This document shows positions 21,234 to 45,499 of a stretch of 64,000 nt of DNA, piece after piece. The DNA is from Paracyclopina nana. Taxonomy: Eukaryota > Arthropoda > Copepoda > Cyclopoida > Cyclopettidae. Under the pieces are notes generated by a model. That model was not told the DNA's origin and did not search any database. It was given only the letters and a program-made list of their open reading frames with translations. Position numbers and translations under genes: made by a program. The DNA lies in assembly GCA_019096065.1 (NCBI GenBank), contig JAGUCH010000001.1, forward strand, positions 2,604,001-2,668,000, read 5' to 3'. Numbering within the stretch: the first letter of the stretch is position 1; every line of letters starts with the position of its first letter.

Positions 21234-21374
21234 TGGGACCAAGTACAAAAACTCCCAATAAGAATGATAAAGATAGTTACATCTTGCCTTCATTTATGAG
21301 GAGAATGTAACAAAGAAGTAGGACGAGCTTACTTTGATTATTTAAAGGAGCAATCTGTGAAAAATGCCGAAATT

Positions 21375-23084
21375 ATGACTCGTGGAAGTGAGGACAAAAA
21401 GGCTCTGGTCCTTGCAATAAGGGGTAGAAAAAGTCGGTTTGTCCATCAGCATACTATGACTGTAATTGAGATTAGCATAATACTGTTTGCAATAACAATA
21501 TGTCAATATTGCTTATTTGGTTGGGATTATTGGCCAATTACAGTAATCTGTAGTGGAGCAATAATAGCTTTATGGTACTACTTTGTAAAAGGTAGCACGA
21601 GTGATGAGCAAAAAACTTGTAGTAATGATGGTATCGTTACACATCTGGCCTCGGTAAATGCTAATGAAGCAGAGCCAGTAACACATTTTGAACCTTTACC
21701 GAATCCGGAACTTGAAGATGACATGCTGAGTATATACTCATTAAAGCTACACAATGTTTGTGAAAGGTATTTTATACCAGTGGAGATAACTGGAAAAATA
21801 CGTTTGCATGCTTTATTTGACAGTGGAGCAATGGTGCAGATAATATCACGCACCCTTGTAAAACTGATCGAAGACAAGATTGGTTACACTCTACCTCGAG
21901 TTGAAACTAATTATGTAATTAAGAACTTTAATGGAGAAGAATTCCCAGGGAATGAAGCTGTCTCTATTCAAGTTGCATTTGGAAATCGTGTTTTAATCAG
22001 ACAGGCTGTTTTCCTTGTATCTGATTGTGATACACTATTAATGATAGGAAACTCGTTATTAGTGGACAACAATGTCCGGATGACTAGTAAAGATGGAAAG
22101 CACTTTATGGATTTCCCTGGAAAATCTAAACATAAGAAAATTCCACTCTTACTATCAAAAGAGGCTTTCTACCCAGTGGCAATAAATGAAGGGATCACTC
22201 TGCTCCCTGGAGAAGAAGTGACCACCATGGCTAGTTTACCTCATGATTTACCTGTCATCAGTAATGACATTCAAATAGATTCTGACTCTGACGAAGATGA
22301 CGACCTTGGTCGTACCCATCACCAGAAAAATGTTTATTCCGGATTGGTGGATAAGTACTTAAACTTTATGCCTAGTAACGAGTACCGCGGAGTGACCTCT
22401 GAGGGGGCACTTACTGCTGTCACTCGTAAAGGTACTTTCCCAGTAAATATTGGGAATAATACTGAGGATCCCATCTACTTAAATGCACATGCAGTGATTG
22501 GGCGAGCCAGGATTGTCAAGAAACAGAAATTTAAGAGTACGGTTGCAGCCCATGTGGCTAACATTAGTTTAAAGGCCCTGGAGCATGAAATGGAGTCATG
22601 TTACTGCAATTATTTGGATTCGCACGTAATTGTGCAGTTTACGGATATAAATGGTCTTTCTTTTACTGATATGCATTTTTTCAATGCCTATGAGCCATTA
22701 AGGGGAAGCCACAAGCCCTTGATTAGTAGAAAAGGAAATTACGTATTTATCTCAGCTAACCAAAGTGATGGTTACGAAGAGATAACTGATGTGATAATTA
22801 GCAAATTTATGAAACGAGAAAAATGGGATGAATTACCGTGGGCTGTTATTGCCCCAGGGCATAAACTTTTGTCTGGCGAACAAAAGCGCATTGTAATAAA
22901 GATGAATATGATGGTGGATAAACTTAAAGTAGTATGGCTAAAATATAAGTATATTTGCCCACCATGCATGACCATTGCCTTGTGTCCTATTGAATCCTAC
23001 CTCAATGGGATGGATAGGGTCATAATAACTATGATGATACATGAGTATGAGAATTACCCCTTGCTTATCAAAGAAATGAACTAG
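21375..23084 (+). CDS. Membrane-anchored retroviral-type aspartic protease
   Basis: 569 residues from the ATG at 21375; the frame is open from 21300. It lies in the gag frame but is separated from it by TAA (21231) and TGA (21297). Two hydrophobic segments come first, about residues 30-48 (VIEISIILFAITICQYCLF) and 53-71, with a charged stretch before and after. The protease follows: LFDSGAMVQIISRTLV with the catalytic Asp at about residue 149, and further on a TLLMIGNSLL block like the second conserved motif of the family. The remaining about 300 residues are unrecognised. Membrane helices before the protease are unusual for retroelements. How it is translated after gag (re-initiation, frameshift or separate mRNA) is not evident. 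Confidence 0.82.
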   Translation: MTRGSEDKKALVLAIRGRKSRFVHQHTMTVIEISIILFAITICQYCLFGWDYWPITVICSGAIIALWYYFVKGSTSDEQKTCSNDGIVTHLASVNANEAEPVTHFEPLPNPELEDDMLSIYSLKLHNVCERYFIPVEITGKIRLHALFDSGAMVQIISRTLVKLIEDKIGYTLPRVETNYVIKNFNGEEFPGNEAVSIQVAFGNRVLIRQAVFLVSDCDTLLMIGNSLLVDNNVRMTSKDGKHFMDFPGKSKHKKIPLLLSKEAFYPVAINEGITLLPGEEVTTMASLPHDLPVISNDIQIDSDSDEDDDLGRTHHQKNVYSGLVDKYLNFMPSNEYRGVTSEGALTAVTRKGTFPVNIGNNTEDPIYLNAHAVIGRARIVKKQKFKSTVAAHVANISLKALEHEMESCYCNYLDSHVIVQFTDINGLSFTDMHFFNAYEPLRGSHKPLISRKGNYVFISANQSDGYEEITDVIISKFMKREKWDELPWAVIAPGHKLLSGEQKRIVIKMNMMVDKLKVVWLKYKYICPPCMTIALCPIESYLNGMDRVIITMMIHEYENYPLLIKEMN

Positions 23085-26700: not shown

Positions 26701-29233
26701 CGAGGACAAAATTCATAAAGCTGAATGGCGTCAACGCATGCGCGAATATGATCTAGAAGAACAGTTCCACTTAGAAAAAATGAAGGCTACTGAAAGGCCT
26801 TCCTTTAAACCTGAGATTGGATCTTTAGTTTTGGTTATAAAACACCCCATAAATAAACAACGGTATAAATTTATGGATGATTTATTTGAAGTCATAGACA
26901 TTGGACAGCATTCAACTGTGACTGTAAAGCCGTATCTTTATGATGGGCTTACTCGTGAAGTAAGCTTAGATCATGTAAAGTTATACCGATTCCACGAACT
27001 ATATAGATTTCTTCCGGAAAAGTTGTCCAACCTCTTGAAACGACCTTACACTCCGGAAGAAATTCTACGTAAAAAAGCAAGGAATGAGGTTATCGAATTT
27101 CTTGAAGGGGCAGCCCCTGAAAGTCATGATTATAGTTTGCGGGGTCATACAAAGGCCTCTAGTATAGTGGCCTCGCAAAGTTCATTGATTTCACAGTCCA
27201 CATCAATGGACACAGAGCCAAGTGCGATTCACCAAACCTATAAGCGCTCTGGTTCTATCCTCATGCAAAAGGCAGCGAGCTTGTTTAAGCCCTCAGATAT
27301 TTTGCGAATACAGGAGGAAAATAAACAACTCGTGCAAAAGCAGTGGGAACAATATGACCGTAAGAAGTTAGAAGAAAAATACCTAGCTGACAATGCTGGT
27401 AATAATATTCTCCACAAAGAAGCAAGTGATTCTTTGTCTGACACTGGCACTGATGATTTTATTGAACAAGCAATTGCACTAAGTGCAAATACAGGGCCCA
27501 ATGAAGCATTTTATGAGGACATGCTGGCCTTGAGCCAACGTGGCCCTCCTACTTTTGCTGAAATGGCCCAACAAGAAAGATTATACCCGAATTTACCAAG
27601 TGTCAAACCTGACCATATTAGTACTCCTGATCGCTCGAACGTCAGTGAAGGGACACTTGCAGGGGTCAGCCCTGTAAAGTGGGCCTTTCGTGGCCAATAC
27701 CGTGATCAACGTGTGCCAGATATACCTGAAAGTCCGGAGAAATATCACACTCCTGACCAAAGTATGTCTGCAACTCCTAATAAGGACAATGATAATATAG
27801 AGGAGATTGTTGAAAAAGCAGCATCTTTCATCGCACCTTCCAAATTTGACACTGACCTAGAATCTTTATCTGCTGGCCTGGAAAGTATGCAATTAGCACT
27901 GCCTACTGATCCATTCGGCGGAAATACACACGATGATGAAAATGAAAGTAGTGATAGTGATGACACAACTACAATTTATTATACTGCTCGTAAAAATCTG
28001 CGGCGTACACCGTTGACAAAAAGCATTAAACAGAATGTTCAAAAAGCAATCGATATTGTACGACGCCAGTTAGAACTCTCACCACGTAAACGGCCTCCCT
28101 CCCCACCAATCGATAATCCTATGGAAGGGCCCAGTGCCCCGAAACCGGAGATTTATGGAGCTGAAGGAGGGGAGCCTCAAGTTCGGTATACTATAATGAA
28201 AAGTCCGGTCAGAAAACCTGATTTGCAACCAAAAAATAGTGAGTTACCAAATGCGGGAGTACCACAAACTGTGCCAAGCACAAACGTACTTGAGCACCCC
28301 TCGGCAAAGGTTACACCTTTGGGTGACCTGGCTATGACTGAAAAGGAGCACCTTACTCATCAAGCTACTCCTGGGGTTGCACACCCCACTGTCAGGCAAA
28401 CTGGCCCAGTAGTTCCACAACCGGGTACTCAGAAGCCACCTGAGGCTGTTGTACGGGCTCCGTATGATCCAGAAAAGTTGTCTCCATTAAGTTTTCTTCC
28501 TCATAACCTAAGAAGAAGAAAAAACGTTAATTATCGCTCCCTGGCAGGGTTTCAAAAGTATAATAAAAAGAACGTACCTGCGGGTCTTCCTGCGATTGCT
28601 CAGCCTGATCCCTCTGAAGCATTGACTCGTTCCGAAGCAGCATTGACAACTGAACAGGATACAAGTCCTTCACAGAATGTTCAACAGCTCCTTGACACGA
28701 ACCTTTTGGTGTCTTCTGACCAGCCGAGTAGTTCGGCAGCCACATCATTCGCCGAACCAAAGGAACCAGAATCCTCGGCCGCTGTCCAACCAACAGTTGA
28801 ACCTGAGATTAGTGAGCCCACTCCAATACGGATCCTTCCCAGACGACAACTGCGGGAGAGAAAAGAAACTGTAGATTACAGAAGGTTAGCGGGCATAAGA
28901 AAGTATGGGAAAGAGAAAAGTAAAGCTGGTAAAGAACAAAAATACTTCCCTAATATTCCACGAATAGCTCCTTTAGATCGGGAGGACAAGGAATTCGCCC
29001 GTGTTAGGTTTACAAATACGAATCAAAGGCCAGACCAAAAAGAGAGAGAGTTACTAGAAGAGGTAGTTCCTAATTGGAAACTGAATAAAAACATGGCTGC
29101 AGTCCCTGATTATATTCAGTTTCTTAAAGCGACTGGCATGGATCACCAAGATGATAGCAACATAAATGAAATGAAGCGGCTGCGTCTCACCTATGATGAC
29201 CTATACAAGCTAGCTTTTAAGAAGTTTAAATAG
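23738..29233 (+). CDS. Pol: reverse transcriptase, RNase H, integrase and long tail
   Basis: 1,831 residues. RT (about 20-345): SFDVTSGYD with catalytic Asp 153, YVDD at 222-225, then LGHLISIDENGI and QLQKFIGMTNWLSQYC, a Ty3/gypsy pattern. RNase H: Asp 390 (VVDSG), Glu 433, Asp 459 and probably Asp 506. Integrase: zinc-finger His 742/747 with C777-x2-C780; catalytic Asp 809 (MIDLA), Asp 870 (ADNGAQ) and Glu 910 (NAYAEN), so D and E are 39 apart where 35 is usual. A basic SH3-like/GPY-type module follows near 1030-1090. From about 1,105 to the end the protein is low-complexity, acidic and proline-rich, with a repeated motif (LRRRKNVNYRSLAGFQKY and LRERKETVDYRRLAGIRKY). All catalytic residues are present. 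The 3' part (from codon 854) is duplicated downstream. Confidence 0.95.
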   Translation: MDLEHIPDEVREDFRDLLIEYKTIFSEDPRSYRLWNVEPMKFQLKDDKPLVPKVFNMSEYETTQVDRKIALMLSSGLIEIVDKSLNRYSACPCFLTSRPNDEKLPMKQRKPRLLVDLTSFNKNLIFTTSKHIVPPIPTLLGMLSNSCLMSSFDVTSGYDNLPVDSDSADMCCFAVTSPRSIYRSVFLKSKSCLQGIAIAPRMFAELLQQALNPEILPFTCVYVDDLVVACKNPGKPRPATLDDYIRHLGDLRKLFQSLKDLNALLQIKKTQLGVKEATVLGHLISIDENGIMTMRMPDKFRSAFDDFPIPTTKKQLQKFIGMTNWLSQYCPNMATYTAPLLDVLQTAQGKTGKFTFNAFQEKCFYKVIDEIKTGMSLALPRFKEGYLVVDSGVISTSALLMEVNEDGKAVCVGAHSARFSLSVCLSYHSFQREALGVLTMINHFKSILFAYERLVIVTDCLSIASVLASSFTGKDAFTHRLAARIYSLPVAWKLRAVPRTEVEVVDVLLNKYHQTPEGETVFYAPYSIAGQITKDIYANKYPLPDAIKDKVLTTQELLTHVYDTLVNSGTMSKTLLQKRLHCLNDKWVDMIGTKPPFVHDDTSTLLQAKHDDDEILEDEILSKLSHSFHGEADFDSPVNHIENNLRVDTVTVKRRISPHLPGITRNLLIKLQQNCEETQKIINLIMLSPPEKVPLDVAVKYRVLDGALLVIRKNVKLPFSVATNTKVYMSMPNCVYLMACIHLLHNHLGSKKTNTLFTQSMYSTYSARISRIIIGACMHCALYRQANTRFVGKGRFRIPTQPWELVMIDLAKFDDTLVKGSSAKDLLVFVDVYSKMIIAKPLLDAKYKQVANAMEEVISLFGVPKTLLADNGAQLTTNKALQRLVDRYKIKELCHYRTLSPYKHSNAYAENAIRIIRSALVLNSNSYNMKLCDVFKTSIYAINNRPLTYLAYTDDNGVKITPTPFSLFFDKMPFYHLGRDVFEILSESEDKIHKAEWRQRMREYDLEEQFHLEKMKATERPSFKPEIGSLVLVIKHPINKQRYKFMDDLFEVIDIGQHSTVTVKPYLYDGLTREVSLDHVKLYRFHELYRFLPEKLSNLLKRPYTPEEILRKKARNEVIEFLEGAAPESHDYSLRGHTKASSIVASQSSLISQSTSMDTEPSAIHQTYKRSGSILMQKAASLFKPSDILRIQEENKQLVQKQWEQYDRKKLEEKYLADNAGNNILHKEASDSLSDTGTDDFIEQAIALSANTGPNEAFYEDMLALSQRGPPTFAEMAQQERLYPNLPSVKPDHISTPDRSNVSEGTLAGVSPVKWAFRGQYRDQRVPDIPESPEKYHTPDQSMSATPNKDNDNIEEIVEKAASFIAPSKFDTDLESLSAGLESMQLALPTDPFGGNTHDDENESSDSDDTTTIYYTARKNLRRTPLTKSIKQNVQKAIDIVRRQLELSPRKRPPSPPIDNPMEGPSAPKPEIYGAEGGEPQVRYTIMKSPVRKPDLQPKNSELPNAGVPQTVPSTNVLEHPSAKVTPLGDLAMTEKEHLTHQATPGVAHPTVRQTGPVVPQPGTQKPPEAVVRAPYDPEKLSPLSFLPHNLRRRKNVNYRSLAGFQKYNKKNVPAGLPAIAQPDPSEALTRSEAALTTEQDTSPSQNVQQLLDTNLLVSSDQPSSSAATSFAEPKEPESSAAVQPTVEPEISEPTPIRILPRRQLRERKETVDYRRLAGIRKYGKEKSKAGKEQKYFPNIPRIAPLDREDKEFARVRFTNTNQRPDQKERELLEEVVPNWKLNKNMAAVPDYIQFLKATGMDHQDDSNINEMKRLRLTYDDLYKLAFKKFK

Positions 29234-29906
29234 AGATTCGTAAGAAAGGACGTGATGACGGTAATCTTAGTGCCCATATTTTATGGGGTCACTACCTTTA
29301 CTTTGTCAGTCCAATATGGGCGCACCGTTTTACCAATCAAGCGCACCCAAAAGTAAGTTAATGCAAAATGTCGATTGCGGACCTGAATTTGGCCGCTTGC
29401 CAAAAAGATCATAGAAATGGACACGAACGGGCAATGTCTCTTCACATGCCCGCCAGTAAGGTACAATATGCATAAAGGTGATAAGTTGCTGAACAGTACA
29501 TTGACAGCAAGAAAACAACTAACGAAACATACTCTCTGCAGTTCGTTAGCGGTTCTAGAAGTATGTATAAAAATGATGGAAGCCACAAGGCACTGGATTT
29601 GGACTTCCTCCAGGGATTGTTCAATCCAACAACAAACCAAACCTCGCTTGCTTTGACAAAATAAATGAAGTTTGCGTAGGTTATTTTTACAATATTGATG
29701 GGACAAATAATTTTGTCCTGTTTCCTGATAAATACCGATGCAAATCAAAATTTGACCGGTACTTACGTGTGCTTGCCCCTTACTACTATAGTAGGAGGCC
29801 AAGCTTACAATAGACGATAGGCCGATTGGCCTGAATAAAGTTAACTATTATATAAGTTATATAAAGTAAAGTACTATAAACACGCCATGCAAGAGGGAAG
29901 TTGCAG
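29234..29906 (+). other. Region after pol with inverted repeat and TATA-like run
   Basis: No gene called. GTGCCCATATT at 29270 pairs imperfectly with AATATGGGCGCAC near 29,312, a potential hairpin just after the pol stop. AAAAGTAAGT near 29,350 resembles a splice donor on the plus strand. TATATAAGT and TATATAAAG at about 29,850-29,870 lie 40-55 bp before the next ATG. The same sequence recurs in unit 2 at 35040-35712. Confidence 0.45.
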
Positions 29907-30773
29907 ATGGGCGTAATGCCCCATCTGAATAGCTATGTGTTGAAAACTATGGTTAAAGCTCCACTGAGCTATGTCCAAATGGAACCGCTATCCACTCCAT
30001 GCCTCGCGTGGGTTGATAGCTACTGGGACATTCGTACCTTAGTACAGCAAAAGTTGGCACTAGGCACTGTGCAAGTGGGACACAATAAACCTCACAATAC
30101 GCATGAGGGCTTGTGTTGGCCGCATTACTATATAAAATCTTGGAACGATATTGAAAACTTCCAGAAGAAATTAGGAAAATGCACAACCTCTGAAATGAGG
30201 ATTGGGCATCGATAAAAAAGGACGATTATAAATCACACATGTTCTGGCATGGAAACGATACCACAGTAGTATATGCCATAAAACAAAAACTCTGTTGCAA
30301 CGACTACTGTGCCTATAATATCAGAGTGTCTCGACCATGACCTGGTTGCATAACGCAGGTCTAGGCGTGACGCCTCCGGACTTTGAGTAAGATGGAACAT
30401 GGAAATCTGTACAAAAATGGGATTCATCTCCCTAAGAAGGGATCTTGAAATACTAAGTACAGCTTTGTGCCTGGGCGAATAATCAGCCCAAACTATGGTC
30501 TTCATGCCTCAACAAAATGTAGGGACCCACTCTCTATTGGAATGGGCCGCTTCTTTGTGGCTACTAAAGACAACAAAAACCCATTTTGCTGGTGAACTCA
30601 TCAGCTTTGGATACAACTGGGGTATCTTGGCGGTGAACAAGTGTTTCCCCATAAAATACCATTTTACATTTCATTTGCCCAACAGTCTATGTGTGACAAA
30701 CGAAATTGTAATTCTAAATGAAAATAAAGTTCAATATGTGCCGCGTTTCTCTTCTTACTATGGCACGATTTAG
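29907..30773 (+). pseudogene. Accessory coding region broken by frame changes, unit 1
   Basis: A 102-codon frame opens at ATG 29907 (ends 30215) and reads like real protein (a Trp/Tyr-rich run around WVDSYWDIRTLVQQ). Near its end the protein-like reading moves to the -1 frame (about 30,190-30,340), then to another frame (about 30,340-30,385), with stops between, then to a frame ending TGA 30595. An overlapping frame runs from ATG 30495 to 30773. The simplest reading is a decayed gene of perhaps 230 codons; several micro-ORFs or a spliced gene are alternatives. No family recognised. It has an identical structure in unit 2. Confidence 0.4.
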
Positions 30774-31144
30774 GTTATTGATATCATGGATGGTGCCCAC
30801 GGGCGCCATCGTTTAAATAACATTGAATAAAATTAGCCTAGCCGATAAGATCTTTTATAGTAAAAGATTCGAAAACATACTTACCTGAATTTTGTGTGAC
30901 TGCTCACTGCAGTTCCCACAAAATGCAGAAAATTGTGGAGGGGGGAGTATATATACGTAGCCGCAGGAAATGCAGCCTGCGCCCCAAAAATTTCACAAAA
31001 TTTGAGCGCCCTCGTGCTCTGAGAAAGTATTGTAAACAAAATTTCTAGAAAAAACTGGATATGGCAAACGACTACACAAAACTATAAACCTGAACACTAG
31101 CACATAAATGTCGCAAAATCTGCTTCATATATTATTATTAGTGC

Positions 31145-31207
31145 TAACCGAAATTAGCTGAAAAGATCGGTGCTGACAACCTCAATCTTTTAAATTAATT
31201 TCGGTTA
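31145..31207 (+). repeat. Two-step hairpin with 12-bp perfect outer stem (unit 1)
   Basis: TAACCGAAATTA (31145) pairs exactly with TAATTTCGGTTA ending at 31207; inside it AAAAGAT pairs with ATCTTTT, leaving a loop of about 17 nt. An 18-nt near-palindrome, CTTGATGC AC GCATCAAG, follows at 31220-31237. The second copy is at 36951-37013. Confidence 0.7.
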
Positions 31208-31229
31208 TGAGCATCCGAACTTGATGCAC

Positions 31230-32330
31230 GCATCAAGACCGAGCTGGAATGCAGAGCTATAATGCTATAATAGCTATGCAAGTCAGTGATAACAGATAAA
31301 ACATAATCTATGAGTCTGTTCAAAATGGCTAGACAAAAAACATTTGAGCAAGATAGACTGAAATGTGAGTTGCATTGCGCAAAGACGCTGAGCCAGCTTT
31401 TGTCGAACAGTTACCCGACTCCAAGGGGGGCAAAAAGTTGTTATGGAACAAAAATCCAGAGACGCTCCCACACTAGAAAAATCCAGTTTGAGCGGCTTCG
31501 CTTGGAGATGTAGAATGGTGGCGCCACCATGCGCCTAACCACGAACTAAAAACGTTTTGCCCAAGGCTAAAACAAACAATGAAGAGTGGAACCGCCGGTG
31601 CACCTACAATTCACCTGGGAAGGTTTTTGAACTTATCTAAACTCAAAAATGGCCATACTTGACTCGAGTGGTGACCCAAATTCCGGGATTTATTAGGCGG
31701 GTACAAGGAATAAAATAAAACGTTGCATAAAAGTCAAGAGAATGAAAATGACTAATGTTATAATGATACCGCTAATGATCGCCAGATGGACTAACAGAAG
31801 AAAAGGTTCAAAGTGCACAAAGATTAGGCATATTGTTAAATAAAAGAAGTGCTGAAATGTGGCTATCTTGCAGTTGCCACATGAATCCCCTCTTTTTTGG
31901 TGGAGAATTCAATTTACGCTAAACACAGCACTAGCAAAACAAGCTAGGTCAGCACACATTGTAGACTGACATGTGAGAAAATGAAAAATACACGTCTTCT
32001 AGCCTGATATGGAAAAGAATATTGTGCCATTGCCTAGTGCTTGAGCTTGCTTTTGCTATGTGCAATGACATACGGCCGGTTTTCCAGTCCTGTAGGGACT
32101 ACGTTTCCTTCGCCGCACTCAAGGCCGAGCCGGAATGCCCAAGGAAAAAAGGATGCCAAATTGGCATTGGTAGCCCATAAGCACCAACGCTTGGCCGGTA
32201 GTAATCGCAGACACTCAAATATGGTGCTGCATCAAGCCCGAGCTGGAATGCAGGGCTATAGTAAACGCTTTTCTTGAACATTGAAGCATCGTTTGCAGTG
32301 TCAAGGCCGTCAAGGTCGAGCTGGAATGCT
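31230..32330 (+). repeat. Dispersed CAAGxCCGAGCTGGAATGC motif, four copies (unit 1)
   Basis: Copies at 31230-31260, 32117-32139, 32229-32259 and 32309-32330. The first and third share nearly 31 nt starting GCATCAAG; the second and fourth share the shorter core (C)GAGCyGGAATGC. The fourth copy is cut by the junction of the two duplication units. Unit 2 repeats the set at 37036, 37923, 38034 and 38114. Function unknown. Confidence 0.7.
31515..31530. repeat. 16-bp perfect palindrome (also at 37321-37336)
   Basis: ATGGTGGCGCCACCAT is a perfect 16-bp palindrome, GC-rich within AT-rich surroundings. It is present unchanged in both duplication units. Confidence 0.7.
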
Positions 32331-35039
32331 ATGGAAGAAGTAATTTCTTTGTTTGGGGTGCCAAAAACATTACTTGCAGATAATGGTGCCCAGCTAACGA
32401 CTAATAAGGCCCTCCAACGCCTTGTTGATCGTTATAAAATTAAGGAGTTATGTCATTACCGAACTTTATCGCCATACAAGCATTCGAACGCTTACGCTGA
32501 AAATGCTATACGAATAATAAGGAGTGCATTAGTCTTAAACTCGAACTCATACAATATGAAGTTATGCGATGTGTTTAAGACTTCTATTTACGCAATAAAT
32601 AACCGCCCTCTTACTTATTTGGCATATACTGATGATAACGGGGTGAAGATCACCCCCACACCTTTCTCATTATTTTTCGATAAAATGCCGTTCTATCACT
32701 TAGGACGGGATGTGTTTGAAATACTTAGTGAAAGCGAGGACAAAATTCATAAAGCTGAATGGCGTCAACGCATGCGCGAATATGATCTAGAAGAACAGTT
32801 CCACTTAGAAAAAATGAAGGCTACTGAAAGGCCTTCCTTTAAACCTGAGATTGGATCTTTAGTTTTGGTTATAAAACACCCCATAAATAAACAACGGTAT
32901 AAATTTATGGATGATTTAGCCCCTGAAAGTCATGATTATAGTTTGCGGGGTCATACAAAGGCCTCTAGTATAGTGGCCTCGCAAAGTTCATTGATTTCAC
33001 AGTCCACATCAATGGACACAGAGCCAAGTGCGATTCACCAAACCTATAAGCGCTCTGGTTCTATCCTCATGCAAAAGGCAGCGAGCTTGTTTAAGCCCTC
33101 AGATATTTTGCGAATACAGGAGGAAAATAAACAACTCGTGCAAAAGCAGTGGGAACAATATGACCGTAAGAAGTTAGAAGAAAAATACCTAGCTGACAAT
33201 GCTGGTAATAATATTCTCCACAAAGAAGCAAGTGATTCTTTGTCTGACACTGGCACTGATGATTTTATTGAACAAGCAATTGCACTAAGTGCAAATACAG
33301 GGCCCAATGAAGCATTTTATGAGGACATGCTGGCCTTGAGCCAACGTGGCCCTCCTACTTTTGCTGAAATGGCCCAACAAGAAAGATTATACCCGAATTT
33401 ACCAAGTGTCAAACCTGACCATATTAGTACTCCTGATCGCTCGAACGTCAGTGAAGGGACACTTGCAGGGGTCAGCCCTGTAAAGTGGGCCTTTCGTGGC
33501 CAATACCGTGATCAACGTGTGCCAGATATACCTGAAAGTCCGGAGAAATATCACACTCCTGACCAAAGTATGTCTGCAACTCCTAATAAGGACAATGATA
33601 ATATAGAGGAGATTGTTGAAAAAGCAGCATCTTTCATCGCACCTTCCAAATTTGACACTGACCTAGAATCTTTATCTGCTGGCCTGGAAAGTATGCAATT
33701 AGCACTGCCTACTGATCCATTCGGCGGAAATACACACGATGATGAAAATGAAAGTAGTGATAGTGATGACACAACTACAATTTATTATACTGCTCGTAAA
33801 AATCTGCGGCGTACACCGTTGACAAAAAGCATTAAACAGAATGTTCAAAAAGCAATCGATATTGTACGACGCCAGTTAGAACTCTCACCACGTAAACGGC
33901 CTCCCTCCCCACCAATCGATAATCCTATGGAAGGGCCCAGTGCCCCGAAACCGGAGATTTATGGAGCTGAAGGAGGGGAGCCTCAAGTTCGGTATACTAT
34001 AATGAAAAGTCCGGTCAGAAAACCTGATTTGCAACCAAAAAATAGTGAGTTACCAAATGCGGGAGTACCACAAACTGTGCCAAGCACAAACGTACTTGAG
34101 CACCCCTCGGCAAAGGTTACACCTTTGGGTGACCTGGCTATGACTGAAAAGGAGCACCTTACTCATCAAGCTACTCCTGGGGTTGCACACCCCACTGTCA
34201 GGCAAACTGGCCCAGTAGTTCCACAACCGGGTACTCAGAAGCCACCTGAGGCTGTTGTACGGGCTCCGTATGATCCAGAAAAGTTGTCTCCATTAAGTTT
34301 TCTTCCTCATAACCTAAGAAGAAGAAAAAACGTTAATTATCGCTCCCTGGCAGGGTTTCAAAAGTATAATAAAAAGAACGTACCTGCGGGTCTTCCTGCG
34401 ATTGCTCAGCCTGATCCCTCTGAAGCATTGACTCGTTCCGAAGCAGCATTGACAACTGAACAGGATACAAGTCCTTCACAGAATGTTCAACAGCTCCTTG
34501 ACACGAACCTTTTGGTGTCTTCTGACCAGCCGAGTAGTTCGGCAGCCACATCATTCGCCGAACCAAAGGAACCAGAATCCTCGGCCGCTGTCCAACCAAC
34601 AGTTGAACCTGAGATTAGTGAGCCCACTCCAATACGGATCCTTCCCAGACGACAACTGCGGGAGAGAAAAGAAACTGTAGATTACAGAAGGTTAGCGGGC
34701 ATAAGAAAGTATGGGAAAGAGAAAAGTAAAGCTGGTAAAGAACAAAAATACTTCCCTAATATTCCACGAATAGCTCCTTTAGATCGGGAGGACAAGGAAT
34801 TCGCCCGTGTTAGGTTTACAAATACGAATCAAAGGCCAGACCAAAAAGAGAGAGAGTTACTAGAAGAGGTAGTTCCTAATTGGAAACTGAATAAAAACAT
34901 GGCTGCAGTCCCTGATTATATTCAGTTTCTTAAAGCGACTGGCATGGATCACCAAGATGATAGCAACATAAATGAAATGAAGCGGCTGCGTCTCACCTAT
35001 GATGACCTATACAAGCTAGCTTTTAAGAAGTTTAAATAG
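32331..35039 (+). CDS. Duplicated 3' part of pol with internal deletion
   Basis: 902 residues from ATG 32331, equal to Pol codons 854-1831 less 76. It keeps integrase Asp 870 and Glu 910 but lacks the zinc finger and first catalytic Asp (809), so it cannot be a working integrase alone. The deletion at 32918/32919 removes exactly 228 nt in frame, covering the basic SH3-like/GPY-type C-terminal module. The disordered tail is complete. No stop has appeared, so either the duplication is young or the tail is made as a separate protein. There is no sign of a promoter immediately ahead of it. Confidence 0.85.
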   Translation: MEEVISLFGVPKTLLADNGAQLTTNKALQRLVDRYKIKELCHYRTLSPYKHSNAYAENAIRIIRSALVLNSNSYNMKLCDVFKTSIYAINNRPLTYLAYTDDNGVKITPTPFSLFFDKMPFYHLGRDVFEILSESEDKIHKAEWRQRMREYDLEEQFHLEKMKATERPSFKPEIGSLVLVIKHPINKQRYKFMDDLAPESHDYSLRGHTKASSIVASQSSLISQSTSMDTEPSAIHQTYKRSGSILMQKAASLFKPSDILRIQEENKQLVQKQWEQYDRKKLEEKYLADNAGNNILHKEASDSLSDTGTDDFIEQAIALSANTGPNEAFYEDMLALSQRGPPTFAEMAQQERLYPNLPSVKPDHISTPDRSNVSEGTLAGVSPVKWAFRGQYRDQRVPDIPESPEKYHTPDQSMSATPNKDNDNIEEIVEKAASFIAPSKFDTDLESLSAGLESMQLALPTDPFGGNTHDDENESSDSDDTTTIYYTARKNLRRTPLTKSIKQNVQKAIDIVRRQLELSPRKRPPSPPIDNPMEGPSAPKPEIYGAEGGEPQVRYTIMKSPVRKPDLQPKNSELPNAGVPQTVPSTNVLEHPSAKVTPLGDLAMTEKEHLTHQATPGVAHPTVRQTGPVVPQPGTQKPPEAVVRAPYDPEKLSPLSFLPHNLRRRKNVNYRSLAGFQKYNKKNVPAGLPAIAQPDPSEALTRSEAALTTEQDTSPSQNVQQLLDTNLLVSSDQPSSSAATSFAEPKEPESSAAVQPTVEPEISEPTPIRILPRRQLRERKETVDYRRLAGIRKYGKEKSKAGKEQKYFPNIPRIAPLDREDKEFARVRFTNTNQRPDQKERELLEEVVPNWKLNKNMAAVPDYIQFLKATGMDHQDDSNINEMKRLRLTYDDLYKLAFKKFK

Positions 35040-35712
35040 AGATTCGTAAGAAAGGACGTGATGACGGTAATCTTAGTGCCCATATTTTATGGGGTCACTA
35101 CCTTTACTTTGTCAGTCCAATATGGGCGCACCGTTTTACCAATCAAGCGCACCCAAAAGTAAGTTAATGCAAAATGTCGATTGCGGACCTGAATTTGGCC
35201 GCTTGCCAAAAAGATCATAGAAATGGACACGAACGGGCAATGTCTCTTCACATGCCCGCCAGTAAGGTACAATATGCATAAAGGTGATAAGTTGCTGAAC
35301 AGTACATTGACAGCAAGAAAACAACTAACGAAACATACTCTCTGCAGTTCGTTAGCGGTTCTAGAAGTATGTATAAAAATGATGGAAGCCACAAGGCACT
35401 GGATTTGGACTTCCTCCAGGGATTGTTCAATCCAACAACAAACCAAACCTCGCTTGCTTTGACAAAATAAATGAAGTTTGCGTAGGTTATTTTTACAATA
35501 TTGATGGGACAAATAATTTTGTCCTGTTTCCTGATAAATACCGATGCAAATCAAAATTTGACCGGTACTTACGTGTGCTTGCCCCTTACTACTATAGTAG
35601 GAGGCCAAGCTTACAATAGACGATAGGCCGATTGGCCTGAATAAAGTTAACTATTATATAAGTTATATAAAGTAAAGTACTATAAACACGCCATGCAAGA
35701 GGGAAGTTGCAG

Positions 35713-36579
35713 ATGGGCGTAATGCCCCATCTGAATAGCTATGTGTTGAAAACTATGGTTAAAGCTCCACTGAGCTATGTCCAAATGGAACCGCTATCCA
35801 CTCCATGCCTCGCGTGGGTTGATAGCTACTGGGACATTCGTACCTTAGTACAGCAAAAGTTGGCACTAGGCACTGTGCAAGTGGGACACAATAAACCTCA
35901 CAATACGCATGAGGGCTTGTGTTGGCCGCATTACTATATAAAATCTTGGAACGATATTGAAAACTTCCAGAAGAAATTAGGAAAATGCACAACCTCTGAA
36001 ATGAGGATTGGGCATCGATAAAAAAGGACGATTATAAATCACACATGTTCTGGCATGGAAACGATACCACAGTAGTATATGCCATAAAACAAAAACTCTG
36101 TTGCAACGACTACTGTGCCTATAATATCAGAGTGTCTCGACCATGACCTGGTTGCATAACGCAGGTCTAGGCGTGACGCCTCCGGACTTTGAGTAAGATG
36201 GAACATGGAAATCTGTACAAAAATGGGATTCATCTCCCTAAGAAGGGATCTTGAAATACTAAGTACAGCTTTGTGCCTGGGCGAATAATCAGCCCAAACT
36301 ATGGTCTTCATGCCTCAACAAAATGTAGGGACCCACTCTCTATTGGAATGGGCCGCTTCTTTGTGGCTACTAAAGACAACAAAAAACCTATATGCTGGTG
36401 AACTCATCAGCTTTGGATACAACTGGGGTATCTTGGCGGTGAACAAGTGTTTCCCCATAAAATACCATTTTACATTTCATTTGCCCAACAGTCTATGTGT
36501 GACAAACGAAATTGTAATTCTAAATGAAAATAAAGTTCAATATGTGCCGCGTTTCTCTTCTTACTATGGCACGATTTAG
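35713..36579 (+). pseudogene. Accessory coding region broken by frame changes, unit 2
   Basis: Second copy of 29907-30773 with the same frame breaks and stops. It differs by four substitutions within seven bases (36386-36392). Because the breaks are shared, they predate the duplication. Confidence 0.4.
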
Positions 36580-36950
36580 GTTATTGATATCATGGATGGT
36601 GCCCACGGGCGCCATCGTTTAAATAACATTGAATAAAATTAGCCTAGCCGATAAGATCTTTTATAGTAAAAGATTCGAAAACATACTTACCTGAATTTTG
36701 TGTGACTGCTCACTGCAGTTCCCACAAAATGCAGAAAATTGTGGAGGGGGGAGTATATATACGTAGCCGCAGGAAATGCAGCCTGCGCCCCAAAAATTTC
36801 ACAAAATTTGAGCGCCCTCGTGCTCTGAGAAAGTATTGTAAACAAAATTTCTAGAAAAAACTGGATATGGCAAACGACTACACAAAACTATAAACCTGAA
36901 CACTAGCACATAAATGTCGCAAAATCTGCTTCATATATTATTATTAGTGC

Positions 36951-37013
36951 TAACCGAAATTAGCTGAAAAGATCGGTGCTGACAACCTCAATCTTTTAAA
37001 TTAATTTCGGTTA
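36951..37013 (+). repeat. Two-step hairpin (unit 2 copy)
   Basis: Identical to 31145-31207. Confidence 0.7.
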
Positions 37014-38128
37014 TGAGCATCCGAACTTGATGCACGCATCAAGACCGAGCTGGAATGCAGAGCTATAATGCTATAATAGCTATGCAAGTCAGTGATAACA
37101 GATAAAACATAATCTATGAGTCTGTTCAAAATGGCTAGACAAAAAACATTTGAGCAAGATAGACTGAAATGTGAGTTGCATTGCGCAAAGACGCTGAGCC
37201 AGCTTTTGTCGAACAGTTACCCGACTCCAAGGGGGGCAAAAAGTTGTTATGGAACAAAAATCCAGAGACGCTCCCACACTAGAAAAATCCAGTTTGAGCG
37301 GCTTCGCTTGGAGATGTAGAATGGTGGCGCCACCATGCGCCTAACCACGAACTAAAAACGTTTTGCCCAAGGCTAAAACAAACAATGAAGAGTGGAACCG
37401 CCGGTGCACCTACAATTCACCTGGGAAGGTTTTTGAACTTATCTAAACTCAAAAATGGCCATACTTGACTCGAGTGGTGACCCAAATTCCGGGATTTATT
37501 AGGCGGGTACAAGGAATAAAATAAAACGTTGCATAAAAGTCAAGAGAATGAAAATGACTAATGTTATAATGATACCGCTAATGATCGCCAGATGGACTAA
37601 CAGAAGAAAAGGTTCAAAGTGCACAAAGATTAGGCATATTGTTAAATAAAAGAAGTGCTGAAATGTGGCTATCTTGCAGTTGCCACATGAATCCCTCTTT
37701 TTTGGTGGAGAATTCAATTTACGCTAAACACAGCACTAGCAAAACAAGCTAGGTCAGCACACATTGTAGACTGACATGTGAGAAAATGAAAAATACACGT
37801 CTTCTAGCCTGATATGGAAAAGAATATTGTGCCATTGCCTAGTGCTTGAGCTTGCTTTTGCTATGTGCAATGACATACGGCCGGTTTTCCAGTCCTGTAG
37901 GGACTACGTTTCCTTCGCCGCACTCAAGGCCGAGCCGGAATGCCCAAGGAAAAAAGGATGCCAAATTGGCATTGGTAGCCCATAAGCACCAACGCTTGGC
38001 CGGTAGTAATCGCAGACACTCAAATATGGTGCTGCATCAAGCCCGAGCTGGAATGCAGGGCTATAGTAAACGCTTTTCTTGAACATTGAAGCATCGTTTG
38101 CAGTGTCAAGGCCGTCAAGGTCGAGCTG

Positions 38129-38416
38129 GAATGCTAGCTTATTTACAGGCCCGAATCTGTGGATTTGGGCCGCTAATGATTCGCTAATGATTAATTATGC
38201 AATTAAAATGCAATTCTTGACACCTGAGATATGGTCTACGGTCCTTTTGGCCATGAAATGTAAAAAATTGGACTCGAAATGTGCTTGGCTATGATAATGA
38301 ACTGCTGAACTTGACTAGAAAGGTGCTGAGCTTCATAAGGCTGAGCTATCTGCTGAGGTAAACGCGAAATGAGTTGCGGTAAACACAGTAGACACAAAAG
38401 TACAATGAACGTGGAC
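38129..38416 (+). other. Short spacer between duplication and antisense genes
   Basis: No coding-like frame. A 10-bp direct repeat (GCTAATGATT, near 38,173 and 38,184) is visible. It lies beyond the poly(A) signal of the neighbouring minus-strand gene. Confidence 0.4.
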
Positions 38417-38422
38417 TTTATT
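38417..38422 (-). terminator. Poly(A) signal of antisense gene 2
   Basis: AATAAA on the minus strand, about 100 bp beyond the last splice acceptor of the antisense gene at 38524-39124. Confidence 0.75.
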
Positions 38423-38523
38423 GTCCCAATGGGAGGCCTCCTGGCTGGTGGGGGCGGGCTGGCCTTGGGCCACGTTGGGGCCAGCCCTGGCCGGTGCGGT
38501 GGCCTACCGGGAACACGACGAGT

Positions 38524-39124
38524 TCTGCAAAAGACAAGATGAATATAGTGAAGCCGTGATGGCTTAAGTGATTAAGTTAGACTTACTAGACGACTCCTTC
38601 GAGGGGGTCCGCCTCCGCCACGCCCAAAAGGCGGAGGACCCACGCAGAAATGCGGGGGAGGTCCTCGGGCTCCGCCCACACGCGGCTGACGAGCCGATAA
38701 AGGCCTCTCGGCCTGGTCCGATGGACCCATACGAGGGCGGGGAGCACCACCACGTAGTACGTGGCTGCCCCTGCCACGTTCAGGGCCACGCCCTAGAGGA
38801 TCTCTTCGGCCTGTAATACGAGAAAAAGTCGAGCTTTGACCAAATAGATAACGAATAATGCACTTACGAAGCCCTGAACGGGGCAGGGAGGGCACGCCTC
38901 CTGATGGCCCAAAGGGGCTGCGGGCGGGGCCGCAGGTGGCTGGGGCCACCCCGCCGCGGACTCGGCCGCGGGGGGCGCCCCTACGGGAGCCTCGGTGGCT
39001 GGCGCCACCGTTGTAGTAGAAGGATTCTGCATTCCCAATGAAAAAGATACAGTTTAACGAAAGGATTCACCGGATTTTAATCGAAATAAAAACTTACGAA
39101 CAAGCCGTGTAGGAAGCCCGCCAT
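38524..39124 (-). CDS. Antisense accessory gene 2: spliced, GC-rich, membrane protein
   Basis: Read on the minus strand. Exon a 39124-39098 (ATG, 9 codons), exon b 39026-38868 (53 codons, Pro/Ala-rich: TTTVAPATEAPVGAPP), then exon c and a non-coding exon d starting at 38524. Introns of 71, 57 and 62 bp all have GTAAGT-type donors and AG acceptors. Exon c has two possible acceptors. At 38811 the exon opens with five codons and an in-frame TAG. At 38793 the AG of that same TAG serves as acceptor, the stop is removed, and about 68 codons follow with a hydrophobic helix (GAATYYVVVLPALVWV). The frame stops where intron 3 begins (TA|A after splicing). Total about 60-130 residues. Exons are near 70% GC, unlike the rest of the element. 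No homologue recognised. Confidence 0.65.
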
Positions 39125-39299
39125 GTTTTGGACTTTTTAGTAAACAAGGCGCGCTACCAGAAAAATCCGGTCTGAAATCGGCCAAATTTCGTGTAAAAAA
39201 GCCTCTTTTTATTACGTGCATCTACGTAAAGTCTGGGAGCGCTGTCAGATGAAGGTAACGGCTTTGCTAATACCTACTACTCCACTTGAATTCGAATTC

Positions 39300-39305
39300 T
39301 TTATT
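39300..39305 (-). terminator. Poly(A) signal of antisense gene 1
   Basis: AATAAA on the minus strand about 325 bp after the stop of the antisense gene at 39629-40680. A 16-bp palindrome, ATATACTCGAGTATAT, lies just upstream at 39335-39350. Confidence 0.55.
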
Positions 39306-39628
39306 ACATATATATAGAATACAAGTACTATAGTATATACTCGAGTATATTGGAAGCTTTGAGATCAGATCAAAATAAAAACAAGACGAGTGCAAGTGCA
39401 AAAGCCGGCTTTAAAAAAGTCTTCAAGGCCTCGAAAAGTCTACGAGGCCTCGAAAAGTCTGCTAGTTCTTGAAAAAGTGGAAAAGTCCGCGAAGACTGCG
39501 GAAAAGTGCGAGTTATCAAGTGAGAAAGTTGCAACGCGATGAAAGTACAAAGTGCGAAAAGTTACAGAAAACGCGCTTAAATACATGCGAACAGAAAGCG
39601 TTCTTCGTCTTTAAGTCTGTGGCGATCC

Positions 39629-40680
39629 TTAGTTGGCATCGCTGTTCACGTCCTGGGAAGCCCTTGACCCGGCGGAATCCTGGTCCTCATCTGCGATTGA
39701 GAGAGGTTCAGCCTCAGTGATCTCGTCCTTGTCCAGAATGGACTCCGCTGCCGAATCCAAGCGTCGGTTATCTCGGGCTCGAGCCCGGCGAGATCGTCTC
39801 TTCAAAGTCCGCGGTCCGCACCCTTCAGTAACAGGTACCTGAAAAGGTGCATGAAAAAGAGTACATGAGCAACCTGTTTACAGTTCATAAATTGATAGGT
39901 CCTTACCCAGCCCTTGGGATTAGGGACGTCATAGATGTGGGCCAGCCCGGACATGATGCTGGGATTCCGGCGTAGTGTTCCATAGGGGTCCATGGCAGCC
40001 ATTGCCATTTGGAGCGAATGGACGTCAGGGTCACGCATAATCGGGGCTGGTGGCATAGCTCGGACCTCTGGGGTACAGCAGTGAAATACCGCTGCATGCT
40101 CTGATGGGGCCTTTGTTGGAAGCATTTGCATGGCTCCACTTGCAGTCGATGACTCCGTACGAATAGCTCGAAACGTGGCCACGAACCTTCGGCACCATCG
40201 TGACGTCCACACGCAGAAGTACACCAACATGCCAAGCAAAATCTGTAAGAAAGAAGGTGGTAAATAAAAGTTTGGCCATAGTTGCAAAACCAGCTATAAG
40301 GTTGAACTTACCAAAGCCATCCCAATGGACGCTCCAAGACCGATCCACCCCATTACACCGTATCGGTGATAATTGAAAACCTCATCGATCCAGTCCCTCT
40401 GAGGGGCAACGGGACGATAACCATTTGGTACCGCTGGCATTAAATCTCGGGGGTCAAACACCTCCACTTCAAAGGGATCGACAGGAGCTGGGTCAAACCC
40501 AGGTCCACCCTCAGCTTCAGAAATGCCACTCTCAGGAATAGCAACATTAGGACCTATTGGGCCCGTGTTTTGAGAATCCACAAGCGCAGGATCCACTGTA
40601 GATGACTGGATTGGAACATCCGTGGGAGCCTCTGCTGAGCTGCCCTCTGGAGTTAGAGAAACCCAGGCTAAAATGACCAT
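39629..40680 (-). CDS. Antisense accessory gene 1: three-exon single-pass membrane protein
   Basis: Minus strand. Exons 40680-40312 (123 codons), 40242-39907 (112 codons) and 39838-39629 (69 codons plus TAA) give 304 residues. Introns of 69 and 68 bp have GTAAGT/GTAAGG donors and pyrimidine-rich CAG acceptors, and all junctions are phase 0. Splicing creates the key feature: the hydrophobic helix at about residues 109-134 is built from the end of exon 1 (GWIGLGASIGMAL) and the start of exon 2 (ILLGMLVYFCVW), and each half continues poorly if unspliced. The N-terminus is weakly signal-like, and the outer part is acidic and Pro/Ser-rich. The inner part begins TSRWCRR and ends in a basic then acidic tail. 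No homologue recognised. A minus-strand TATA box lies about 190 bp upstream. Confidence 0.78.
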
Positions 40681-40847
40681 CGCGAGTTGATTGGGATTGG
40701 AATATCTCTAGAAAAGTGACCAACTTGGACGAAGTCCGATGGGAGAATGATTAACATTAAGTGAAAGCTGAGAGTTGCAACTGCCTGTTGCACCCTCGCT
40801 ACGTTTCACGACCTAGGAAGTCAAAAATGTCCGTGCAACCCGACGAT

Positions 40848-40876
40848 GAGCGTGCGCGCACGCGCCCATCTTATAA
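40848..40876 (-). promoter_or_regulatory. Putative promoter of antisense gene 1
   Basis: On the minus strand TATAAG begins at about 40875 and a TCATC initiator-like site follows some 28-30 bp later near 40,847. TTATAA is palindromic, so it could also work rightward. Confidence 0.4.
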
Positions 40877-41038: not shown

Positions 41039-41045
41039 TCTGGAA

Positions 41046-42344
41046 ATGAGCGATAGCTTGAATAGCCTCGATAACCTAAGGATGTCTCTGATCACCGAAT
41101 CCATGGAAGGAGAATCTGCATTGGTCTCCATAATGGAGACTGATAAGACTGGAGAGTTCAACGAGCATGAGGTTAGTGAGCTCCTAAAGGATGATGAGCC
41201 AGTTATGGATCGCAACATGCCTGCTGTCAATACTGAGAACCAAGCCCTAAATCAGACGACTAGACACCAGGACCAAGAGGAACCCCTCGAGGTCCCATTG
41301 GAAAGGGTATCCTCCAGTTTGGGGTACCCATTGCCATTTGAGGATTTGATCAGGCCTCCCCACATGGAGGGCCTACAGGCCTATGCGAGGGAGGCGAGCC
41401 GGACCAGAGCTACTATACAGCAGCATTATGATGCAAGCCTGTTGAAGATAGCTACGAAAGAGGTCATGACTGTTGGAAAGGAGGTGCCTTTTGACCTAAC
41501 GATCAGGATAAATGGAGAACCCTATGAACGGACCGAGCCTCGTAGGCCATTGAAGGTGAAAAACTTTGACTGCATTGAATTGATTATCGAGCCAGTGAGT
41601 AAAGGAGGGGAGATTCCCGATTTTCTTGTTATATTTCCGATGCTAGACAATCTACCAGTCTACAACTTGCCTGACAAGATGGAATATGACGAGAATGTCC
41701 ATAAGTTGGCCAATGTCAGGAGTTGGTCTGCCGTCCAGAGCCCAACAGCTGTTGGGTATTATGTGCATGGAATCCGTGGACAGGGTGGAGCTCAACTCCC
41801 TGTAGTAGTCTCCAAACATTATACCAAGCGAGGCTGCATTCAGATCATGCCAACATTGGACTCATCATTTTGGGATCCGCGGATGTTCCATGATTTGACG
41901 TCGCCTTACGTGCAACTGTATGTGGGACCGCCGTCCTGCCTTAACAATGGCGTGGCTCAAGCACCACGAAAATTGGACGTGAAGATCGATATGACCGCAC
42001 TCCTGCCTACCATGGTAGCCCAGTTTGTCGATCGAGCCATTGGGACATATCCGCAATGCGTGAGGTACACAGCCGGGGCCAGGCCCCAAAAACTAGCTGC
42101 GTTTGTGGAGAAGTCTTGGCAACAAAAACCAAGGCGAGGACCTAGACTGTACGCCGATGTAGCGCGCGGGCGCCCTTTTGGCGCAGGAACGAATGGACCA
42201 GACATTTTGCACGCTAAGCGCTCCAAAGTCGATAAGAATAAGGAGCGTGTGAACTATCTCCTCCAGGCTAAAATGGAGGAAATGACCCCCAGCGACATCA
42301 AGGTATTCACTGAGGCGATTAATGGATTTGTCGGGCAGTTCTAA
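41046..42344 (+). CDS. Unknown 432-residue accessory protein
   Basis: Intact frame from ATG 41046; a 26-codon longer form from 40968 is possible if transcription starts upstream. The first about 110 residues are acidic and polar (MSDSLNSLDNLRMSLITES). The middle is rich in short hydrophobic stretches alternating with Pro/Gly turns (FDCIELIIEPVSKGG, IPDFLVIFPMLDNLPVYNL, PYVQLYVGPP), suggesting a beta-rich fold such as a jelly roll or matrix-like domain. The last about 90 residues are basic (QQKPRRGPRLYADVARGR). There is no signal peptide or membrane helix. It precedes the Env-like gene and has its own TATA box, so a structural role such as matrix or second nucleoprotein is conceivable, but I recognise no family. 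Confidence 0.75.
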   Translation: MSDSLNSLDNLRMSLITESMEGESALVSIMETDKTGEFNEHEVSELLKDDEPVMDRNMPAVNTENQALNQTTRHQDQEEPLEVPLERVSSSLGYPLPFEDLIRPPHMEGLQAYAREASRTRATIQQHYDASLLKIATKEVMTVGKEVPFDLTIRINGEPYERTEPRRPLKVKNFDCIELIIEPVSKGGEIPDFLVIFPMLDNLPVYNLPDKMEYDENVHKLANVRSWSAVQSPTAVGYYVHGIRGQGGAQLPVVVSKHYTKRGCIQIMPTLDSSFWDPRMFHDLTSPYVQLYVGPPSCLNNGVAQAPRKLDVKIDMTALLPTMVAQFVDRAIGTYPQCVRYTAGARPQKLAAFVEKSWQQKPRRGPRLYADVARGRPFGAGTNGPDILHAKRSKVDKNKERVNYLLQAKMEEMTPSDIKVFTEAINGFVGQF

Positions 42345-42554: not shown

Positions 42555-42582
42555 GTTTCTGATCAGAGTTTGTGCTGGTAAG

Positions 42583-44573: not shown

Positions 44574-45499
44574 TGATGGGCAATAAGTACATCATGTCTC
44601 TGGTGCACGTTACGACCAGAATAGGACTTGATTGGACCCCTCCAGTGGAACCTGTGGAAACCGTGGAGCCCGTGGAGCCGCCAGAAGTCCGGAAGGTTGC
44701 CCATTCACCGCTACATCACCACCTCAAAATCACAAAACCTCCCTTCTCAAAAAACACCTTTTCATCTCCTCCAACTCTCTGATTGTTGCTGCTGCTGCTG
44801 CTACTACCTATGCGTTGAGCCTTACCTATGGCAATTCACCTGACCTTGAGTGGAGAAGTTGCTAGCCATTGTGTGGAGGAGTTGCTAGCTGCTACATAGA
44901 GAGGACCTGCAGCTGCATGATAACGGAGAGAAGCAGATGGAAGCTGATGGAACTTGCTGCGATGCATCGAGTGGAGAAGAAGGAGAAGACTCGGGGAGTT
45001 CGATGGGGGACTTCAGAGAAACAAGACATGGACCAAGTGCACATGGCCCATTGAGTGAGCTCTGCCCTGCTATTGTCCCACCAAAGTTCTCCAAAGTGTG
45101 CTGAGGCATGAAGAAGATGGCCACAAGAATATTTACTGCAGTACTTATTTCTTTGTATTTGCTGCCATTAATTTGTGTGGTGTTAAAAGCTGAGTGAATA
45201 AGACAACCTTGTTTGACTTTGTTCGACCATAACTTGTATAGAGGTTTCCTGGGCAGTTATGCATCCTCGTCTGAGGCTGTTGAGGCCGTTGAGGACGTGG
45301 GTAGGAGGCCCAATCACAGGTCTACAGCACTGAAGCTTGCCATGTGATGTATCTCGCCAGAGTTGGAGCACCGAGGCTGCGGCTTTGGGTCCAAGGCGGG
45401 TAGACATCCGGCCAGCACCCGGAGGCTGCGAACGGTACCGCGACCATGAAGCCGATGCTAACCATCCTAGGCTTCAGAGGGTGTGACCGTCGCACACCA
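44574..45499 (+). repeat. 3' long terminal repeat
   Basis: 926 bp, same sequence and ends as 16487-17412. Confidence 0.97.

Follow-up and report, generated by a model that had tools for sequence, protein, structure and literature searches.

The long terminal repeat (LTR) retroelement at positions 16487-45499 of the analyzed window, a 64,000-nt stretch of the genome of the copepod Paracyclopina nana (assembly GCA_019096065.1, contig JAGUCH010000001.1, positions 2,604,001 to 2,668,000 of the forward strand), carries two minus-strand genes, here called g1 and g2, between pol and a sense open reading frame (ORF) of 432 amino acids (aa). We consider it very probable, at roughly 90%, that both are transcribed and spliced as complete antisense units, equipped with TATA-like or poly(A) signals of their own, and that their orientation spares the five small introns, all of the spliceosomal type. 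Retroelements are expected to lose introns since they pass through RNA. Here, the minus strand of the integrated DNA would be transcribed by a host polymerase and the transcript then spliced, and the sense genomic RNA would read the same introns backwards, leave them unspliced and hand them on to reverse transcription; the cDNA would keep them because in genomic RNA they read CT..AC and would not be spliced. Such an arrangement would allow a retroelement to gain independently regulated genes, and it offers a test of whether intron survival depends on orientation.

The gene g1 encodes 304 aa, has two introns and extends from the ATG at 40680 to a stop codon that ends at 39629, with an internal TATA-like box ~190 nt upstream of the ATG. 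The gene g2 consists of four exons and three introns, starts at 39124, and its coding frame ends at the junction of exon 3 and intron 3 (Table 1). Both genes had been proposed in an initial annotation of this DNA, together with five introns of 57-71 bp, consensus splice sites, matching phases, poly(A) signals and a TATA-like promoter, and all of these elements were recovered here: the exon ends 40312/40242, 39907/39838, 39098/39026 and 38868/38810, introns of 69, 68, 71, 57 and 62 nt that all follow the pattern GTAAG...AG, phase 0 for the four introns inside the coding frame and a fifth intron at the stop codon, AATAAA at 39305-39300 and 38422-38417, and TTATAA at 40876-40871. An additional intron in the 5' untranslated region of g1, starting from GTAAGT at 40899, was considered and rejected, as this donor is absent from all seven divergent copies that reach the site. 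The g1 product appears to be a single-pass membrane protein with a tyrosine motif and a basic tail. Neither g1 nor either of the two parts of g2 that flank an in-frame TAG had a Pfam match up to E = 1, and hence there was no bZIP match.

The genome searched comprises 92 Mb in 10 contigs. In a DNA search with g1, the best 40 of 56 candidates all matched at 94-100%, and 20 of these, the window's own copy included, were compared as near copies. The stretch 38000-44700 aligns nearly whole and in one piece in 18 of the 20, the exceptions being L033, which stops at 43070, and L038, which is broken near 40900. The initial annotation had suggested checking other copies for substitutions that ignore frame and splice sites and for conservation of the introns; this comparison gave the opposite of neglect, with the GT and AG of all five introns intact in 20/20 copies and with frames that are clearly visible in the substitutions. 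Among the changes shared by at least two of the 20 copies, 41/63 are synonymous in the proposed frame of g1 versus 9/63 and 7/63 in the shifted frames, and for exons 1-3 of g2 the corresponding numbers are 45/70 versus 14/70 and 11/71; proposed and shifted frames were also compared by Fisher tests. Singleton changes, which should for the most part postdate insertion, are synonymous in 10/33 cases in g1, which is near neutral, and in 7/12 in g2. The g1 frame is intact in 16/20 near copies, and g2 is likewise open except for its TAG in 16/20, one of these with a shortened frame. The sense ORFs show the same behavior, with 30/39 shared changes synonymous in the 432-aa ORF and 25/38 in the env-like ORF (L033 excluded).

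The same picture emerged from a divergent set of nine sequences, namely the window copy and eight copies whose g1 exons are 53-76% identical to it among the matches listed. The positions of the splice dinucleotides are invariant throughout (20/20), as opposed to 152/307 interior intron positions (Fisher p 1.7e-6). Through to its stop, g1 is open in five of the eight divergent copies (not in L046, L047 and L048), and g2 is open except for the TAG in six (L043 and L048 are frameshifted). With these broken copies excluded for the respective gene, the ratio of nonsynonymous to synonymous substitution rates (dN/dS) against the window copy was 0.10-0.20 for g1 (five partners with a value) and 0.13-0.28 for g2 (nine partners), and it reached 0.33 among the other listed g1 pairs. 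All four coding introns occupy the same alignment column and share the same phase across 9 g1 and 10 g2 models, lineage 2 (see below) included.

Two further lineages extend the comparison beyond that of the window (lineage 1). Lineage 2 was found by a search with the env-like ORF, with at least 12 matches at 44-45% identity among the best 69 of 124 candidates. Three stretches upstream of env carry a sense homologue of the 432-aa ORF (46%) together with antisense g1 and g2, and their four coding introns lie at the same alignment columns as in the window, all in phase 0. Both g1 introns coincide in 12/12 pairwise alignments (three copies, four settings), and the part of g2 past the TAG is 72-76% identical. 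Lineage 3 is represented by seven places that match this latter part at 47-50%. At one of these loci, reverse transcriptase (RT)-RNase H (52% identical), integrase (48%), the 432-aa ORF (25%) and env (30%) are all in sense orientation, and the antisense block again lies between pol and the 432-aa ORF. The g2 of lineage 3 has introns 2 and 3, and the gene in the place of g1 again has, by eye, an intron within its membrane segment and seems to possess an extra upstream intron. We take it as shown by these alignments that the frames and splice sites of g1 and g2 have been maintained under purifying selection as the element replicated repeatedly and that the block is old.

A role of orientation is suggested by the distribution of the introns: the 1.3 kb of antisense coding sequence contain four and have a fifth at their end, and the 13 kb of sense ORFs (gag-like, protease, pol, 432-aa and env-like) are all open and contain none. 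If five introns were placed randomly over the coding bases, such a pattern would have p ~7e-6, or ~7e-5 when the calculation is restricted to the four within the frame. This asymmetry was implied by the initial annotation and is present. The block was read through at 33 loci, comprising 20 near and 8 divergent copies, three from lineage 2 and two from lineage 3, and at none of them was it intronless. From what is known of retroelement biology, antisense orientation would let introns survive reverse transcription, an idea that the asymmetry supports and that none of our results contradicts.

Several observations weigh against reading the block as a pair of functional, spliced antisense genes. 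The frame of g1 is broken in 4/20 near copies, which is expected after insertion, and dN/dS rises to 0.45 among the other g2 pairs. Between lineage 2 and the window, g1 shares only 21-23% identity (56/267, 61/264 and 62/264 residues), and the BLAST matches, which cover 41-62 residues around the membrane segment, have E values of 3.6e-7, 0.002 and 0.001; in lineage 3, g1 lacks a significant sequence match and is named from its position and layout, its second intron is not recognizable, and the acceptor of g2 intron 1 reads AAAG in one of seven copies. Moreover, any function assigned to the two proteins would have no homologue behind it. This last point, with Pfam and PHROGs yielding no homologue that would give a function, fits a fragment of host or viral DNA that was captured by chance and is carried along without function for the element, as do the introns, which suggest that the block entered as DNA; the selection seen in shared substitutions, dN/dS values well below 1 and the maintenance of the block through three lineages make such a passive passenger very improbable. 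We regard it as even less credible that the minus-strand pattern arose by chance or is the shadow of a sense-strand function such as RNA packaging or cis elements. Some intron sequence is indeed conserved for itself, above all the unusually constant g2 intron 3 (38586-38525), in which 46/58 interior columns are invariant over the nine divergent sequences versus 11/65 in g1 intron 1, but a frame-specific synonymous excess, preserved splice sites and phase-0 introns at identical columns speak against such a reading.

The coding frame of g2 is interrupted by an in-frame TAG, which was absent from the initial annotation and is new in the present analysis. It occupies codon 6 of exon 3 (codon 4 in lineage 3) and is present in 20/20 near copies. 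Altogether, it was found in 50/51 loci read with a search pattern that fixed the surrounding letters and that every locus matched, comprising 29/29 in lineage 1, 15/15 in lineage 2 and 6/7 in lineage 3. Shared changes before the TAG are synonymous in 12/16 cases versus 2/16 and 0/16 in the shifted frames, and after it in 33/54 versus 12/54 and 11/55. Selection thus acts on both sides of the TAG and, therefore, a protein is made past the stop at least sometimes. We propose that g2 gives two products, a short form terminating at the UAG and a long one extended by ~68 residues, which include a hydrophobic helix and probably form a membrane segment; for the part past the UAG, a structure prediction with a mean predicted local distance difference test score (pLDDT) of 60 gave three helices, the first formed by residues 6-26.

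The UAG lies near the tip of a hairpin formed by the joined ends of exons 2 and 3. This hairpin occurs in three lineages, and its left arm spans the exon junction in all three. The fold of the spliced junction around the UAG had z-scores of -6.0, -3.2 and -8.8 (one sequence each from lineages 1, 2 and 3), and synonymous-codon shuffles of the same mRNA were equally stable in only 0, 5 and 1 of 1000 cases, respectively. In the 20 near copies, 1/57 columns of the hairpin vary versus 89/351 in the rest of g2. For eight distinct sequences from lineages 1 and 2, we further examined covariation: an 18-pair core, from which the five outer pairs were dropped, is paired in 144/144 cells, with three pairs changed on both sides, its covariation score was reached by 0/500 shuffles, and sliding the partners leaves 35-51% paired. 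A search of 38300-41100 against Rfam returned a single match, far below the gathering score. The hairpin may govern the choice between short and long form, with A-to-I editing of UAG to UIG, read as tryptophan, as our first guess.

Certain results speak against a switch of this kind. Across the same eight sequences of lineages 1 and 2, 167/184 cells (90.8%) of the window's full 23-pair structure are paired, and lineage 2 does not preserve the five outer pairs as a unit. Two-sided pairs are no more numerous than in the shuffles (393/500), the changes representing few events. GC-rich g2 contains other hairpins that are nearly as stable, and in lineage 2 stronger ones exist elsewhere. The outer stem can also form in unspliced RNA of the window, where the intron is looped out and the sequence surrounding the UAG folds differently (z -3.5). 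Finally, one lineage 3 copy has CAG instead of TAG.

Three mechanisms could account for the UAG; they are rivals on this point alone, leaving the spliced genes unaffected, and all of them fit coding on both sides. Editing by ADAR, which would turn the stop into a switch in the manner of the hepatitis delta virus amber/W site, is a possible explanation that we rank first because the UAG lies within a long double-stranded RNA in three lineages, despite the unlike sequence of lineage 3, and because A_deamin domains occur at three places in the host. The neighbours of the UAG are those preferred by ADAR. However, the best ADAR context is an A-C mismatch, and the A of the UAG faces an A in lineages 1 and 2 and, in lineage 3, belongs to a terminal A-U pair; A_deamin is, furthermore, also found in tRNA deaminases. 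Alternative 3' splicing, in which the TAG provides a second in-frame acceptor so that the stop ends one isoform and is spliced out of the other, would explain why in the 50 loci with a stop it is always TAG followed by G, never TAA or TGA, and why the sole lineage 3 copy without the stop still has an AG (CAG). This putative second acceptor lies 18 nt downstream of the first in lineages 1 and 2 (CTCTAG|G), where a purine-rich GAAGAG separates the two acceptors, or 12 nt downstream in lineage 3 (GATTAG|G). We nevertheless find this mechanism doubtful, given that the left arm of the hairpin crosses the exon junction in all three lineages, suggesting a role in spliced RNA, and that the inner stem would presumably bury the second acceptor. 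Ribosomal readthrough stimulated by the hairpin would agree with the G that follows the UAG, with the selection on coding to either side of it and with a conserved RNA structure, but known stimulators lie 3' of the stop rather than around it and the UAG is not followed by a classical leaky motif, which leaves readthrough rather unlikely. The composite picture, in which orientation-shielded, multi-intron antisense genes are combined with a hairpin that is completed by splicing and directs the editing of amber to tryptophan, switching between a short and a membrane-anchored protein, is tentative and has to be held more loosely than editing by itself. A possible recoding switch at the g2 UAG can be tested with ordinary cDNA.

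A natural parallel to the antisense genes is HBZ of the retrovirus HTLV-1, whose transcription begins in the 3' LTR and which contains a single main intron; other retroviral antisense genes exist. Like HBZ, g1 and g2 are spliced minus-strand coding genes in an LTR provirus, with the difference that here the structure was read from selection and not from RNA, that the element, 23 kb in length, contains two internal units sharing five introns between them, and that neither protein matches bZIP. The logic is the same as in engineered lentiviral vectors for beta-globin, in which the gene is placed in reverse orientation and so keeps its introns from splicing of the vector RNA; those vectors were designed by people, whereas the present arrangement is natural and kept by selection. 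Placing an intron-bearing gene backwards, as is done in gene-therapy vectors, appears to be a device that nature uses too. Large retroelements with added genes, some of them antisense, are also represented by plant LTR elements of the Grande and RIRE2 type, with extra antisense ORFs, and by the Terminons of bdelloid rotifers, which are large and carry extra genes; to our knowledge, neither has a conserved multi-intron antisense pair with tested splice-site selection. Terminons are characterized by an Athena-type Penelope RT and a telomeric position, and the LTR pair and integrase-like match argue against a Terminon here. The hepatitis delta virus amber/W site is a UAG in double-stranded RNA whose editing extends the small protein. 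It shares with g2 the in-frame UAG in conserved double-stranded RNA and the continuation of coding past it; the g2 hairpin differs in joining two exons, the extension is a probable membrane segment, and editing is a proposal. Ty3/gypsy elements with env (errantivirus type) resemble the host element in their LTRs, the order of protease, RT, RNase H and integrase, the 3' env-like gene and the short target-site duplication, and they differ from it with regard to the antisense gene pair, the extra 432-aa sense ORF, the length of 23 kb and the env-like protein, for which Pfam, PDB and PHROGs gave no useful match.

Table 1 Annotated features of the retroelement and its antisense genes. Positions refer to the window.
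Feature	Position	Strand	Remarks
TATA-like box TTATAA, upstream of g1	40871..40876	-	present in 6/8 sequences reaching there, window included
g1 exon 1	40312..40680	-	Pro/Glu-rich N-terminal part and first half of membrane segment
g1 intron 1, 69 nt	40243..40311	-	phase 0, interrupts membrane segment
g1 exon 2	39907..40242	-	remainder of membrane segment, then a cytoplasmic-like tail carrying a YDV motif
g1 intron 2, 68 nt	39839..39906	-	phase 0
g1 exon 3	39629..39838	-	Arg-rich C-terminus and stop
g1 poly(A) signal AATAAA	39300..39305	-	in 9/9 divergent sequences, window included
g2 exon 1, 9 codons	39098..39124	-	ATG at 39124
g2 intron 1, 71 nt	39027..39097	-	phase 0
g2 exon 2	38868..39026	-	Ala/Pro-rich
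g2 intron 2, 57 nt	38811..38867	-	phase 0
g2 exon 3	38587..38810	-	5 codons, in-frame TAG 38795-38793, 68 codons with hydrophobic stretch; second stop at intron 3 junction
g2 intron 3, 62 nt	38525..38586	-	donor overlaps stop (TA|G)
g2 exon 4, non-coding	38417..38524	-	without synonymous excess; ends in AATAAA (38422-38417)
57-nt hairpin, UAG near tip	38885-38868 joined to 38810-38772	-	spliced pieces of exons 2 and 3
5' LTR	16487..17412	+	926 bp, TG...CA ends; CATT directly before
gag-like ORF, 863 aa	18642..21233	+	CxxC pairs close to C-terminus
Protease ORF	21300..23084	+	weak Ty3 peptidase A2B match, 18.3 bits, below the cut-off of 21.2
pol ORF, 1838 aa	23717..29233	+	RT above cut-off; RNase H and integrase below cut-off
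Internal tandem duplication, ~5.8 kb	26290..38136	+	26290-32331 vs 32324-38136, 99.9-100% identical; spans 3' pol and spacer
Sense ORF, 432 aa from ATG 41046	41046..42344	+	TATA-like box at 41004
env-like sense ORF, 628 aa	42583..44469	+	hydrophobic N-terminus, C-terminal membrane segment
3' LTR	44574..45499	+	TG...CA ends; CATT directly after; purine-rich tract just upstream

The host element is an LTR retroelement with Ty3/gypsy gene order and measures ~29 kb end to end. Its two LTRs are identical over 926/926 bp, and the 4-bp target-site duplication CATT is found on both flanks. The order protease-RT-RNase H-integrase is present, with the RT match above the curated cut-off and the other three below. 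The 863-aa ORF had no Pfam match and is probably gag, judging from its position; the 628-aa ORF presumably acts as env. Pfam and PDB sequence searches assigned neither the 432-aa nor the env-like ORF to a known family, a PHROGs search with g1, the part of g2 past the UAG, the 432-aa ORF and env gave nothing useful (one env match with E 0.079 was disregarded), and scans of IMG/VR with env and the 432-aa ORF revealed no relative. A structure prediction for the 432-aa ORF from a four-row alignment reached a mean pLDDT of 40 and was set aside.

The window copy is 29 kb long because of the internal ~5.8-kb duplication, which gives it a second, 5'-truncated 3' part of pol. Among the best 40 of 127 candidates in the genome, we found at least 18 LTR pairs, 13 of which measure 23.1-23.6 kb end to end and hence lack such additional length, and five, including the window copy, 29.0-35.8 kb. 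The spacer past pol (35040-36640 and, via the duplication, ~29233-30800) has, on visual inspection, the look of degenerate coding sequence interrupted by many stops and may once have been an env. TATA-like boxes on the plus strand at 41004 and 42520, just 5' of the 432-aa ORF and env, suggest internal sense promoters too. The region 40900-41000 between the divergent g1 and 432-aa ORF is strongly conserved non-coding sequence in the eight sequences that reach there, window included, and is likely a bidirectional promoter. In lineage 2, TATAAAAG stands directly ahead of the homologue of the 432-aa ORF in 3/3 copies. ARAGORN called a tRNA-Asn on the minus strand within pol at 28751-28831 and 34557-34637, a single sequence doubled by the duplication and probably spurious.

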